The translations under genes and the position numbers were made by a program. Shown piece after piece: positions 25,901-54,601 of a stretch of DNA of 64,000 nt (positions are counted from its first letter, which is position 1; every line of letters begins with the position of its first letter). Source of the DNA: Halorubrum sp. DM2 (GTDB lineage Archaea; Halobacteriota; Halobacteria; Halobacteriales; Haloferacaceae); assembly GCF_901686465.1 (NCBI RefSeq), contig NZ_LR594487.1, positions 3,051,773 through 3,115,772 of the forward strand, given 5' to 3'. The notes under the pieces were generated by a model. That model saw only the letters and a program-made list of their open reading frames with translations, did no database searches and had not been told where the DNA came from.

Positions 25901-26668
25901 TCAGTCCCGCGTGACCAGTTCGACCTCGTGGCCGTCCTGGTCCTTCGTGAACGCGTAGTTGTGGTCGCAGGACGCGGGGTCGCGGTAGTCGGGCGCTTCG
26001 CGGGTCAGCAGCGCGTCCCAGGCGTCGTCGAGGTCGTCGACGCGCACCGCGACGTGGCCCCAGCCGTCGCCCATCGTGTACTCGCGGCCGTCGTAGTTGT
26101 ACGTGAGTTCGAGCTTCATCGCCTCCTCCGGGGCGTCCTCGGGCGCGACGAAGTAGTTCGAGAAGGTGTCGGCCTCCCAGCGGCCCGGGACCTCGGTGTA
26201 CTCGAACTTGCGGGTCCAGTAGCCGAGCGCCTCGTCGGCGTCCTCGACGCGGACCATCGTGTGGTCGATACTCCACTTCGCGCCGTGGTCGCGCTTGACG
26301 ATCTCGATCTCGTGACCGTCGGGGTCCTTCACGAACGCGTAGCGGTTCCCGCAGGACTCGGGGTCGCGGTAGTCGTCGACGCCCTCCTCGATCAGCCCGT
26401 CGTACGACTCCTGAAGCGCGTCCTCGGGGACGCGGACCGCGATGTGGCCCCACGCGTCGCCGATCTCGTAGCTGCGGCCGTCGTGGTTGTACGTGAGCTC
26501 CAAGAGCGCGCCGTCCTCGTGGACGTCCTCGGGACCGAGGAAGACGTTGGTGAACGTGTCGGCCTCCCAGCGGCCCTTCTCCTCGTAGTTCAGGTGCGTC
26601 TGGTACCAGTCGAGGCTCTCCTCTAAGTCCTCGACGCGGATCATCACGTGGTCGAAGGTTCCGTCCAT
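25901..26668 (-). CDS. Two-domain VOC protein, glyoxalase I type
   Basis: 255 residues made of two similar VOC units (about 1-125 and 135-255). Each has an N-terminal His strand (FDHVMIRVEDLEESLDWY; IDHTMVRVEDADEALGYW), the glyoxalase I signature LELTYN.DGR.Y..GD.WGH.AVRV with Glu and His metal ligands, and a terminal GHE(I/V)E(I/L)V. All four expected ligands are visible in both halves, so both sites may be active. This is the fused form of lactoylglutathione lyase. Haloarchaea use gamma-glutamylcysteine instead of glutathione, so the thiol cofactor is uncertain. Start ATG 26668 immediately precedes the first domain. Convergent with the kinase at 23174. Confidence 0.85.
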   Translation of the reverse strand: MDGTFDHVMIRVEDLEESLDWYQTHLNYEEKGRWEADTFTNVFLGPEDVHEDGALLELTYNHDGRSYEIGDAWGHIAVRVPEDALQESYDGLIEEGVDDYRDPESCGNRYAFVKDPDGHEIEIVKRDHGAKWSIDHTMVRVEDADEALGYWTRKFEYTEVPGRWEADTFSNYFVAPEDAPEEAMKLELTYNYDGREYTMGDGWGHVAVRVDDLDDAWDALLTREAPDYRDPASCDHNYAFTKDQDGHEVELVTRD

Positions 26669-49463: not shown

Positions 49464-49940
49464 CTACGCCTGACACTCGGCGAGCCACTCGTGGGCCCAG
49501 TCGTCGATCTCCTCGAAGACGGGCGCGAGCGACTCGCCCTTATCGGTCAGACTGTAGTACGTCGCCACGGGCGAGTCCTCTTCGAGCCGTCGATGAACGA
49601 AGCCCGTCTCCTGGAGGTCGTCGAGCACGCGCGAGAGCGTCCGGGCGTTCGCGTCGGTCTCGCGTTTCAGCTCGTTGAACCGCGCCTCGCCGCTCAACAG
49701 CTCGTGGAGGACGACGAGCCGCCACTTCGAGCCGATCTGCTCGATCGAGTCGACGACCGGACAGGGGGTCTCGGGCGTGGTCGACGCGTCCGTCTCCGCC
49801 GACGCGCCCGTCCCCGCTGCCGCGTCCGCTCCCGCCGCCGGCGATTCGCTCGCGTCCGCCTCAGCCTCGCTCGCGGCCGCGTCGGCCTCTTCTGCCGCCG
49901 TGTCCGCCGTCTCCGTGCCGGCGAGTTCCTGCGATGACAT
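49464..49940 (-). CDS. HxlR/DUF24 family winged-helix regulator
   Basis: 158 residues. The N-terminal 55 residues are a low-complexity Ala/Glu/Asp tail. Then comes the HxlR domain: CPVVDSIEQIGSKWRLVVLHEL at residue 60, ARFNELKRETDANARTLSRVLDDL recognition region near 85, and wing RRLEEDSPVATYYSLTDKGE near 117. Cys60, just before the first helix, sits where the redox-sensing Cys lies in bacterial YodB/CatR/QorR (CP near the start). This suggests a thiol switch, by analogy. Divergent from the DoxX-VOC genes; a likely operator lies between. Confidence 0.85.
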   Translation of the reverse strand: MSSQELAGTETADTAAEEADAAASEAEADASESPAAGADAAAGTGASAETDASTTPETPCPVVDSIEQIGSKWRLVVLHELLSGEARFNELKRETDANARTLSRVLDDLQETGFVHRRLEEDSPVATYYSLTDKGESLAPVFEEIDDWAHEWLAECQA

Positions 49941-49944
49941 CGGT

Positions 49945-50006
49945 GTTACCTACTAACCGTGTTGTCCGGGAAGCGATATATAGGTTACGTCCGTATAGCA
50001 GGTTAC
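49945..50006. promoter_or_regulatory. Divergent promoter/operator region of the HxlR-DoxX pair
   Basis: The 69-base divergent spacer holds the inverted repeat GTTAcctacTAAC (49945-49957), the TATA-like gatatata (49974-49981), and two direct copies of AGGTTAC at 49982-49988 and 50000-50006, just before ATG 50010. Arrangement suits autoregulation and DoxX control by the HxlR protein; binding is not shown. Confidence 0.5.
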
Positions 50007-50009
50007 ACG

Positions 50010-50459
50010 ATGTTAGCTGAAATCACGACGCTACCGCTCCAGTTCGACACCCCCCTCGCGGGCGAGCTCTTCTTACTCGGCCGCCTCATCTTCGGCGTCA
50101 CGCTCGCGTTCATGGGGCTCAACCACTTCATGGACCTCGAAACGATGGCCGGCTACGCCGAGTTCAAGGGGCTTCCCGCGCCGAAGTTCTCCGTGATCGC
50201 GTCCGGTACGGTCCTCGTCCTCGGCGGGCTGGGCGTCGCGGCGGGCGCGTTCCCCGTTCTCGCGGCCGGCGCGCTCGCGTTCTTCCTCGTCGTCTCCGCC
50301 GTGACGATGCACGACTTCTGGTCGATGGACGACCCCGAGGAGAAGCAGAACGAGATGACGAGCTTCCTGAAGAACGTCTACGGCGCGGGCGCGGCGCTCG
50401 CGCTGCTCGCGGTCGGCGGCACCGCGTGGCCGTACGCGGTCGGTCTCGGCCTGTTCTGA
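50010..50459 (+). CDS. DoxX family membrane protein
   Basis: 149 residues with four hydrophobic helices. Motif 'LFLLGRLIFGVTLAFMGLNHFMDLETMAGYAEFKGLPAPKF' near 20-60 is the DoxX signature. In Bacillus the DoxX protein MhqP belongs to the mhqNOP quinone-stress operon. The VOC dioxygenase-like gene follows by 68 bases on the same strand. ATG 50010 follows two AGGTTAC repeats; upstream in-frame codons lie in the promoter. Confidence 0.85.
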   Translation: MLAEITTLPLQFDTPLAGELFLLGRLIFGVTLAFMGLNHFMDLETMAGYAEFKGLPAPKFSVIASGTVLVLGGLGVAAGAFPVLAAGALAFFLVVSAVTMHDFWSMDDPEEKQNEMTSFLKNVYGAGAALALLAVGGTAWPYAVGLGLF

Positions 50460-50527
50460 GGCGAGACCCTCGGTGAGCGGGTCCGACCGCCGGAACGGCT
50501 AACCGTCTCGCCGGCGAGGCCGGTGAC

Positions 50528-51010
50528 ATGAGCGACGCGCCGCCGACGACCGGACTCCACCACGTCACGAACATCTGTACGGACATCGAGGAGACCCAGT
50601 CGTTCTACGAGGACGTCCTCGGCTGGCACACGGTCAAGCGGACCCAGAACTACGACGACCCCGGTACGCCGCACTACTACTTCTCACCCACCCCGGAAGG
50701 CAAACCGGGAACCAACGTCACCTACTTCGAGTACCCCGACTCGCAGGGGACGCCCGGCCCGGGCGCGAGCCACCACTTCGCGTTCGGCGTCGAAGACGAG
50801 GCGACGCTCCGCGAGTGGCGGGACCACCTGCGCGAGAGCGACGTGCGCGTCTCCGAGGTGAAAGACCGCACCTACTTCAAGAGCATCTACTTCACCGACC
50901 CCGACGGCCTCGTCTTCGAGTTGGCGACGCAGGGACCGGGGTTCACCCGCGACGAGGACGACCCGGGGAGCGAGGTGATCGACCCGTTCGACGAGGGGTA
51001 CGAGAACTGA
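50528..51010 (+). CDS. VOC family dioxygenase-like protein (MhqO type)
   Basis: 160 residues. First unit starts GLHHVTNICTDIEETQSFYEDVLGW with metal His; second-half strand GASHHFAFGVEDEATLREW carries a second His; FTDPDGLVFELATQGPGF carries the Glu. This is the layout of one half of ring-cleaving extradiol dioxygenases such as MhqO/MhqA, here in a single-unit length (two-domain forms are near 310 residues). It probably acts on a hydroquinone or related compound, as suggested by its DoxX and HxlR neighbours. Confidence 0.8.
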   Translation: MSDAPPTTGLHHVTNICTDIEETQSFYEDVLGWHTVKRTQNYDDPGTPHYYFSPTPEGKPGTNVTYFEYPDSQGTPGPGASHHFAFGVEDEATLREWRDHLRESDVRVSEVKDRTYFKSIYFTDPDGLVFELATQGPGFTRDEDDPGSEVIDPFDEGYEN

Positions 51011-51052: not shown

Positions 51053-51484
51053 TCACCCCTCGCCTTCGACGAGGGCCGCGAACCGGTCGAGTGCGCGCCG
51101 ACAGACGGGGACGTACGCGGCCGCGACGAGCGGGACCTCGACGACGACTCGACACCGGTCCGAGCGCCCCGTATACCGGTCGACGCGGTGCCCGGTCGCG
51201 GGGACGCCGGCGACCCGCCAGTCCCAGCGGAGCCGCGTCGCGGCCGTCACCCGAAACGGGACCCAGACGCCTGCGATCCGGACTCGGCCGGTCGTTCCGG
51301 TCTCGACGTATCGGTCCGCGCTCTCGACGCCGCCGACGGACGGGCTCCACTCGGGCCACCGCCGGGTGTCCCGAAGCGCTCTCGCGGTCGACTCGGGCGG
51401 TGCGGCGACCTCGCGGCCGACCGCGAGCGTCGTCCCGTCTCTGACCACCGTCGATCGGTCGCGCGGCCCGGCGTTTCCGAACAC
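51053..51484 (-). CDS. SRPBCC/START-like protein
   Basis: 143 residues. Helix-grip pattern: VGREVAAPPESTARALRDTRRWPEWSPSVGGVESADRY, then GRVRIAGVWVPFRVTAATRLRWDWRVAGVPATGHRVDRY and a final long helix YVPVCRRALDRFAALVEG. Such proteins bind hydrophobic ligands. The GTG start at 51484 is a weak choice; an internal GTG about 12 codons later is possible. Convergent with the VOC gene and unrelated in direction. Confidence 0.75.
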   Translation of the reverse strand: MFGNAGPRDRSTVVRDGTTLAVGREVAAPPESTARALRDTRRWPEWSPSVGGVESADRYVETGTTGRVRIAGVWVPFRVTAATRLRWDWRVAGVPATGHRVDRYTGRSDRCRVVVEVPLVAAAYVPVCRRALDRFAALVEGEG

Positions 51485-53459: not shown

Positions 53460-53587
53460 GAAGGGTCCATTCTCGAAGCGCCGTGGTAAGGCTACCGGCG
53501 ACGGAAGGCGGCGTCGGCCGGCGCATCGTTCTCGCGGCTGATACCCGCGGGCGTGGGTTTAACCCGAGCGCCGGCGGAGGCGCACGC

Positions 53588-54601
53588 ATGATCGAGGTGT
53601 CGGGGCTGCGGAAGACCTACGGCGACTTCGCGGCCGTGGTCGACAGCGACTTCGCCGTCGAGGAGGGGGAGGTGTTCGGGATCGTCGGCCCGAACGGAGC
53701 GGGAAAGACGACGACGCTGAAGGTGCTCGCCGGGCTCGTCGAGCCGACCGACGGCGAGGTGACCGTCGCCGGGTTCGACGCCTCCGACCCCGAGATGCGC
53801 CGCCACCTCGGATTCCTGCCGGAGGAGTCGCCGCTGTACGAGGAGATGACCGCCCGGTCGTACCTCCGCTTCTTCGCCGACCTCTACGACGTGCCGCGAG
53901 ACGTCGCCGACGAACGGATCGAGGCCGCGCTCGACCGCCTCGAACTCGACCACCGCGAGCGCCGCCTCGGCGACGTCTCGAAGGGGATGAAACGGAAGGT
54001 CGCCATCGCGCGCTCGCTCGTCAACGACCCGGACGTGCTGGTGTACGACGAGCCGGCCTCCGGGCTCGATCCGGTGACGACGAACTCCGTCCTCGCCTTT
54101 ACCCGCGAGCTGCGCGAGACGGGCAAGACGGTCGTCTTCTCGGCGCACAACCTCTACCACGTCGAGTCGGTCTGCGACCGTGTCGTCGTCATGAACGAGG
54201 GCCGGATCGTCGCCCGCGGGAGCGTCGACGGGATCCGCGAGCAGCACGGCGAGACGACCTACCGCGTGTTCACCGACGTCGAGCCGACGGCGACGCCCGC
54301 GCTCGCCGACCTCGACGCGACCACCGAGGAGGTCGGCGACCGCTTCCGGACCGCGGTCCCGAGCATGGACGCGGTCGCCGCCGTCCGCGAGGCCGCCGCC
54401 GACGCCGGCGGCGAGGTCGTCGACATCCGGAGTCACGAGCCCAGCCTCGAAGACGTGTTCCTCGACATCGTCGGGCGGCCGATGCCCGGTCGGTACACCG
54501 GCGACCTCGGCGGTGAGTCCGACGAGTCGGCGGGAGGCGACGCGAGCGACGCCGACGGAGCTGAGGCGGAGACGGCGACCGCGACGGAGGCGACCGAGTG
54601 A
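53588..54601 (+). CDS. ABC-2 type transporter ATPase (NatA-like)
   Basis: 337 residues from ATG 53588, which directly precedes MIEVSGLRKTYGDFAAV. Walker A GPNGAGKTTTLK near 37, signature LGDVSKGMKRKVAIARSL near 130, Walker B VLVYDEPASGLDP near 155 and switch His SAHNLYHVE near 187. A DUF4162-like tail follows, then an acidic Asp/Ala/Glu end. Followed, with 4-base overlap, by the permease-PrsW fusion and then a second permease: a complete ABC-2 exporter operon. Confidence 0.92.
   Translation: MIEVSGLRKTYGDFAAVVDSDFAVEEGEVFGIVGPNGAGKTTTLKVLAGLVEPTDGEVTVAGFDASDPEMRRHLGFLPEESPLYEEMTARSYLRFFADLYDVPRDVADERIEAALDRLELDHRERRLGDVSKGMKRKVAIARSLVNDPDVLVYDEPASGLDPVTTNSVLAFTRELRETGKTVVFSAHNLYHVESVCDRVVVMNEGRIVARGSVDGIREQHGETTYRVFTDVEPTATPALADLDATTEEVGDRFRTAVPSMDAVAAVREAAADAGGEVVDIRSHEPSLEDVFLDIVGRPMPGRYTGDLGGESDESAGGDASDADGAEAETATATEATE

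Follow-up and report, generated by a model that had tools for sequence, protein, structure and literature searches.

A cysteine-bearing HxlR regulator divergent to DoxX and VOC genes: a probable haloarchaeal counterpart of YodB/CatR-controlled quinone-detoxification operons

We propose, with moderate confidence, that an HxlR-type regulator gene divergent to a DoxX and a VOC gene in Halorubrum forms the haloarchaeal counterpart of the YodB/CatR-controlled quinone-detoxification operons, the regulator being a putative Cys-based, electrophile-responsive repressor. The strongest support for the quinone reading is that HxlR is linked to the same kinds of enzymes as the bacterial quinone regulons. 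Ring-cleavage dioxygenases are found alongside the phospholipase/carboxylesterase MhqD in the regulons of YodB, CatR, QsrR and MhqR in B. subtilis and S. aureus, and a conserved cysteine is the quinone sensor in YodB (Cys6) and in CatR (Cys7) (PMC6798810). The original prediction had taken the trio for a quinone- or electrophile-stress module. The partner enzymes and the conserved active site lend weight to this, whereas the quinone specificity drawn from the regulator's cysteine had been over-read. Two partner types that the prediction did not include, an MhqD-like PF02230 hydrolase and two-domain MhqO-like proteins, raise the case for quinone detoxification.

Gene order and the cysteines of the regulator

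The window, that is the whole 64,000-nucleotide stretch of DNA that was analysed, is part of a complete haloarchaeal chromosome (3051773-3115772). On its minus strand lies the gene of a 158-aa HxlR/DUF24 winged-helix regulator (49464-49940; PF01638, E 3.6e-22). A divergent spacer of 69 bp from ATG to ATG (49941-50009) separates it from the gene of a 149-aa small membrane protein of the DoxX family, which starts with the ATG at 50010 (50010-50459, plus strand; PF07681, E 2.4e-11), and after a gap of 68 bp follows the gene of a 160-aa single-domain VOC protein (50528-51010, plus strand; PF00903, E 1.6e-18). The gene coordinates and Pfam domains confirm the three genes and the divergent order as they had been predicted. 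A hairpin in the DoxX-VOC gap (50460-50512) was considered and rejected (z -1.2, without conservation).

The trio had also been likened to mhqNOP. A DoxX and a VOC gene are indeed present, but the MhqN nitroreductase is absent from the operon, none of the neighbouring genes being a nitroreductase gene, and the order of DoxX followed by VOC is closer to catDE than to mhqNOP. The catDE operon of B. subtilis encodes the DoxX protein CatD and the two-domain VOC dioxygenase CatE, and is controlled by DUF24 repressors. It shares with the haloarchaeal genes a DoxX followed by a VOC dioxygenase, and differs from them in that here the VOC protein is a single domain of 160 aa and the regulator adjoins. 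By analogy, the module would function as YodB/CatR-CatDE does; it falls outside the mhqNOP type, and its enzyme is no canonical two-domain MhqO.

In phmmer searches, the regulator matched YodB (5hs7, 2e-12) and YybR (4a5m, 2.9e-13). Its Cys60 lies within TPCPVVDSIEQIGSKW, as had been noted, and aligns with the first Cys of the YodB CPKMES motif. The prediction had been staked on the conservation of this residue, and Cys60 is invariant: it is found in 156 of 156 orthologous loci, at an identical distance from the IGSxW motif. Such conservation fits thiol sensing in general without pointing to a particular inducer. Many HxlR proteins have an N-terminal Cys, and the Cys residues of these regulators are reactive with many electrophiles. 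Since Cys60 fits several of them, it is the partner enzymes, rather than the cysteine, that carry the case for quinone specificity. The same broad reactivity would suit a Cys-based HxlR repressor whose signals are different electrophiles or oxidants (hypochlorite, reactive aldehydes or diamide-like disulfide stress) working with a glyoxalase- or thiol-transferase-like VOC protein, an explanation that we regard as unlikely and to which we return with the enzyme.

The haloarchaeal regulator resembles the MarR/DUF24-HxlR redox repressors YodB and CatR of B. subtilis and QsrR of S. aureus in its HxlR winged helix, in the N-terminal CPxxxS Cys, which aligns with Cys6 of YodB, and in the linked ring-cleavage dioxygenase genes. 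Unlike them, it carries a long variable N-terminal extension, which in Halorubrum is Ala- and acid-rich, comprises about 50 residues (49767-49940, minus strand) and is much longer than that of YodB. It also differs in being directly divergent to its presumed targets, with an archaeal TATA-type promoter and a candidate operator of its own. A further difference from YodB, whose C-terminal partner cysteines are Cys101/108, regards the C-terminal cysteine, which occurs in some genera only: Halorubrum species keep Cys156 in the tail of the protein and Haloarcula has it, while most other orthologues lack it, and in the alignment it falls about 3 residues off YodB Cys101. Therefore, a YodB-type Cys6-Cys101 disulfide cannot be the general mechanism. 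The chemistry at Cys60 may instead be S-alkylation, a mixed disulfide with a small thiol, or Cys60-Cys60' bonding. Formaldehyde sensing by an HxlR protein of B. subtilis relies on a Cys-x-Lys pair that is cross-linked by formaldehyde. We rejected this type of sensing for the haloarchaeal protein, which reads C60-P61-V62, the Lys at +2 being missing here and in the aligned orthologues.

A single-domain VOC protein with dioxygenase-type residues

The VOC protein is predicted to be an Fe(II) hydroquinone-type ring-cleaving dioxygenase. Its closest characterised structures by profile are MhqO (3oaj, 1e-38) and PcpA (4huz, 1.8e-18), together with a B. cereus relative (1zsw, 2e-38); FosB-type proteins (1e-8) and glyoxalases come far behind. 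Residues H11, H12, H83, Y121 and E131 align with PcpA H10, H11, H227, Y266 and E276, and none of the five varies among 29 VOC orthologues. Following the residue roles in PcpA, we take H12, H83 and E131 to be the metal ligands (2-His-1-Glu) and H11 and Y121 to be second-sphere residues. A C-terminal GPGFTxDE stretch is likewise shared. In favour of the other-electrophile explanation, FosB, GlxI and similar proteins have the same His/His/Glu layout, and weaker matches to them exist. Nonetheless, the matches to MhqO and PcpA stand far ahead of those to FosB and the glyoxalases, the PcpA-like Tyr and the GPGFTxDE stretch are held in common, and the partner swaps described below include relatives of MhqO and MhqD, all of which speaks against that explanation.

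MhqO and PcpA are fused two-domain chains with their ligands split over both domains, whereas the window protein has all of them at half the length: it is one domain of 160 aa and does not combine two VOC domains in one chain. A homodimer with complete sites is therefore to be expected. An AlphaFold model of moderate confidence (pLDDT 68) supports the fold only; its relatives are of the VOC type, and its best fold matches are 1zsw, MhqO (3oaj) and 9u42, a single-domain homogentisate dioxygenase. The single-domain enzyme could show the origin of the fused two-domain MhqO/PcpA enzymes. Elsewhere in the window, at about 25916-26656 on the minus strand, a single frame of 289 aa matches PF00903 twice in a row and encodes another two-domain VOC protein.

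A ring-cleaving enzyme might also belong to an aromatic catabolism module, in which HxlR would induce an enzyme that opens the ring of a growth substrate, for example gentisate or homogentisate. Indeed, 9u42 (a homogentisate 1,2-dioxygenase) is a relative in sequence as well as in fold. However, no further catabolic genes (hydratase, aldolase or CoA transferase) could be recognised beside the trio, and the nearby genes encode an acylphosphatase, a polyketide-cyclase-like protein and a CNNM protein. We consider a catabolic role very improbable.

Conservation of the trio and exchange of divergent partners

Among 59 related genomes, the three orthologues adjoin one another in nearly all congeners, with HxlR and DoxX divergent and VOC downstream of DoxX. 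The close named loci with the same trio are Halorubrum species, and across the genus the DoxX orthologues divergent to HxlR are 80-93% identical. The trio is not simply frozen together, since in one congener (L006) VOC stands opposite HxlR without a DoxX match and in another (L108) VOC is about 3 kb off. Beyond Halorubrum, the trio is found in Natronocalculus, Halopenitus, Haloparvum and further genomes of the same family. The HxlR orthologue itself is near-universal in haloarchaea (over 90%), occurring in 267 of the 293 genomes of the order.

We classed the divergent neighbour of HxlR by profiles in 80 named loci and 60 further whole-genome loci, the family names for part of the genomes being inferred from kinship with named loci. 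The partner varies by lineage yet stays within one functional set. It is DoxX in Haloarcula and Halapricum, DoxX-VOC or DoxX-VOC-flavin reductase in Natronocalculus and others, a two-domain MhqO-like VOC protein in Halobellus and Halorussus, an MhqO-like VOC protein with the MhqD-like PF02230 hydrolase in Halorussus- and Halobacterium-type genomes, the MhqD-like hydrolase alone in Halobacterium and Haloglomus, and a flavin reductase in Halorientalis. On a plasmid of Haladaptatus halobius, an annotated cluster has HxlR divergent to DoxX, a ring-cleaving dioxygenase and a dienelactone hydrolase. Co-occurrence in other haloarchaea, on which the prediction had also been made to depend, is thus found genus-wide for the trio and, outside Halorubrum, for a partner from the set in 31 of 60 loci and 16 of 36 genera. 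The partner families amount to about 21 genes in the window's genome, which gives a chance expectation of about 0.6% if 3,400 or so genes are assumed. Two of the classes, hydrolase and flavin reductase, are post hoc, as their profiles were seeded with neighbours seen in the initial loci. Without these two, DoxX and VOC, which had been named beforehand, still cover about 22 of the 60 loci.

HxlR opposite an MhqO-like and MhqD-like pair recalls the mhqED/MhqR regulon with its VOC dioxygenase and its phospholipase/carboxylesterase MhqD, although bacterial MhqR is a MarR repressor and not an HxlR protein, and the corresponding pair in the window's genome lies away from HxlR. This pair, a two-domain MhqO-like VOC gene followed by an MhqD-like hydrolase gene, is about 14 kb from the trio (chromosome about 3115974-3117724) and starts about 200 bp past the end of the window.

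In Haloferax and most Natrialbaceae, the neighbour classification found HxlR without any detoxification partner adjoining. This counts against our proposal, as the core job of HxlR may differ or be done in trans. A near-universal regulator fits a housekeeping stress better than an environmental one, as would be the case if the module kept the respiratory (menaquinone) or membrane redox state. HxlR would then sense an endogenous quinone or the thiol redox state, DoxX, a membrane protein, would be a membrane redox component and VOC would remove spent quinol head groups. The response of QsrR to the menaquinone precursor menadione points the same way (PMC6798810). However, the partner set is that of the exogenous-quinone regulons and most Natrialbaceae lack it beside HxlR; we therefore deem a role in redox upkeep quite unlikely.

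Downstream of the trio lie a polyketide-cyclase-like gene (51053-51484, minus strand) and an ABC ATPase gene (53483-54601, plus strand). In several Natrialbaceae the HxlR orthologue adjoins relatives of these genes without DoxX-VOC, which suggests that DoxX-VOC was inserted into, or lost from, an older synteny block.

The divergent promoter and a model of its regulation

Aligned across 32 congeners, the spacer has the consensus TCGgtGTTACCTaCT.ACcctaTTGTCCGGGAAGCGATAaATAGGTTaCGTcCGTAtA.gt.GTTACACgATG. The original prediction had pointed to the inverted repeat GTTACCTACTAAC (49945-49957; 4-bp arms, GTTA/TAAC) and to two AGGTTAC repeats (49982-49988 and 50000-50006). All of these are present in the window, but the inverted repeat is poorly kept: the TAA right arm of GTTAcctacTAAC occurs in only about 18 of 32 congeners, the others having TTAC, TGAC or TTGC. 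With its right arm lost in about half of the congeners, GTTA...TAAC is probably not the operator. Of the two AGGTTAC repeats, 27 of 32 congeners retain the first and 12 the second. The best-conserved element of the spacer, of which only a part had been noticed, is TTGTCCGGGAAGCGATAWATAGGTTACGTnCGTA (49962-49995). Its first part is the conserved TTGTCCGGGAA (49962-49972), which lies on the HxlR side of the TATA box and reaches 90% or more in the consensus of the 32 sequences. The same TTGTCCGGGAA is also seen in Haloarcula-type loci. Both its sequence and its conservation mark ATATATA (49976-49982) as a TATA-like box, probably common to both directions; at about 30 bp before the DoxX ATG, it suggests a leaderless DoxX transcript.

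Adjoining the TATA box is the candidate HxlR operator AGGTTACGTCCGTATAG (49982-49998), which aligns with a palindrome of other haloarchaea, GGTTCGNNNNCGAACC. This palindrome is perfect in 36 of 156 HxlR upstream regions and has one mismatch in 34 more. At 0-1 mismatch it is thus found in 70 of 156 (45%), against 12 of 2855 control windows (0.4%), although the loci are related by descent and the counts are not independent. As it is present whatever the partner, and even without one, the palindrome most likely belongs to HxlR itself. The window's AGGTTACGTCCGTATAG keeps the left arm and the TACGnnCGTA core in a degraded or remodelled form, and AGGTTACGTNCGTA has a single 0-mismatch site in the whole genome. 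The element at 49982-49998 is likely the HxlR operator, a remodelled GGTTCGNNNNCGAACC. As a regulon finder the palindrome was rejected as too unspecific (it gives 1-8 sites in a genome, and many of these have TCGA-type centres). Covariation of the recognition-helix residues (SS/NS/NA) with the operator type was also discarded; it is not clean, and NA-type Natrialbaceae retain the palindrome.

That Natrialbaceae have the regulator and its palindrome without any such partner would be in keeping with an HxlR that only regulates itself, with unrelated true targets and with DoxX and VOC adjacent through inherited synteny, free of regulation. Against this, functionally linked partners have been swapped repeatedly, in 16 of 36 genera, which is not inherited synteny, and in the divergent promoters the element lies between the TATA box and the DoxX start. 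Of the explanations weighed here, we give this one the smallest chance.

For the quinone-detoxification reading, we infer from these features a course of events that covers repression, DNA contact, Cys chemistry, inducer, substrate, homodimer and the role of DoxX. Without stress, an HxlR dimer would sit on the element beside the common TATA box and block TBP/TFB both ways, which would keep its own gene and doxX-voc repressed; such repression is suggested by the closeness of the genes and by the promoter element that they have in common. Modification of Cys60 by an electrophile or oxidant, most probably a quinone, would release the repressor, upon which the DoxX membrane protein and the VOC enzyme would be made. 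The latter, probably as a homodimer, would act on the hydroquinone that arises by reduction and open its ring.

A wider picture can be drawn, tentatively and with somewhat more doubt than belief. One nearly universal Cys-switch HxlR with the common operator GGTTCGNNNNCGAACC, remodelled in Halorubrum, might have had different quinone-detoxification genes attached to it by different lineages, among them a single-domain hydroquinone dioxygenase resembling the undivided ancestor of MhqO/PcpA, and this would be the first thiol-based quinone-stress regulon in Archaea. Thiol-based sensing is known from haloarchaea through the TrmB-family regulator OxsR (PMC9426492). Our literature search, in a limited text collection, found no quinone-specific archaeal regulon and nothing on HxlR with DoxX. 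If the picture is true, HxlR, whose orthologues occur in more than 90% of haloarchaeal genomes, can readily be targeted in genetic models, its operator becomes predictable, and its changing partners illustrate how a lineage puts together a stress regulon.

In Haloarcula and several other genera, a mini-ORF of about 22-33 codons, in many cases starting with MKP (e.g. MKPPIAVRQSRSETISAPEVSA; loci L095, L116-L126, L143, L183, L260 and L280), stands before DoxX. It begins about 30 bp past the TATA box and ends in a TGATG that overlaps the DoxX start; in Halorubrum it is absent and DoxX itself starts at that place. As its sequence is poorly conserved, the mini-ORF is possibly a leaderless translational-coupling leader.
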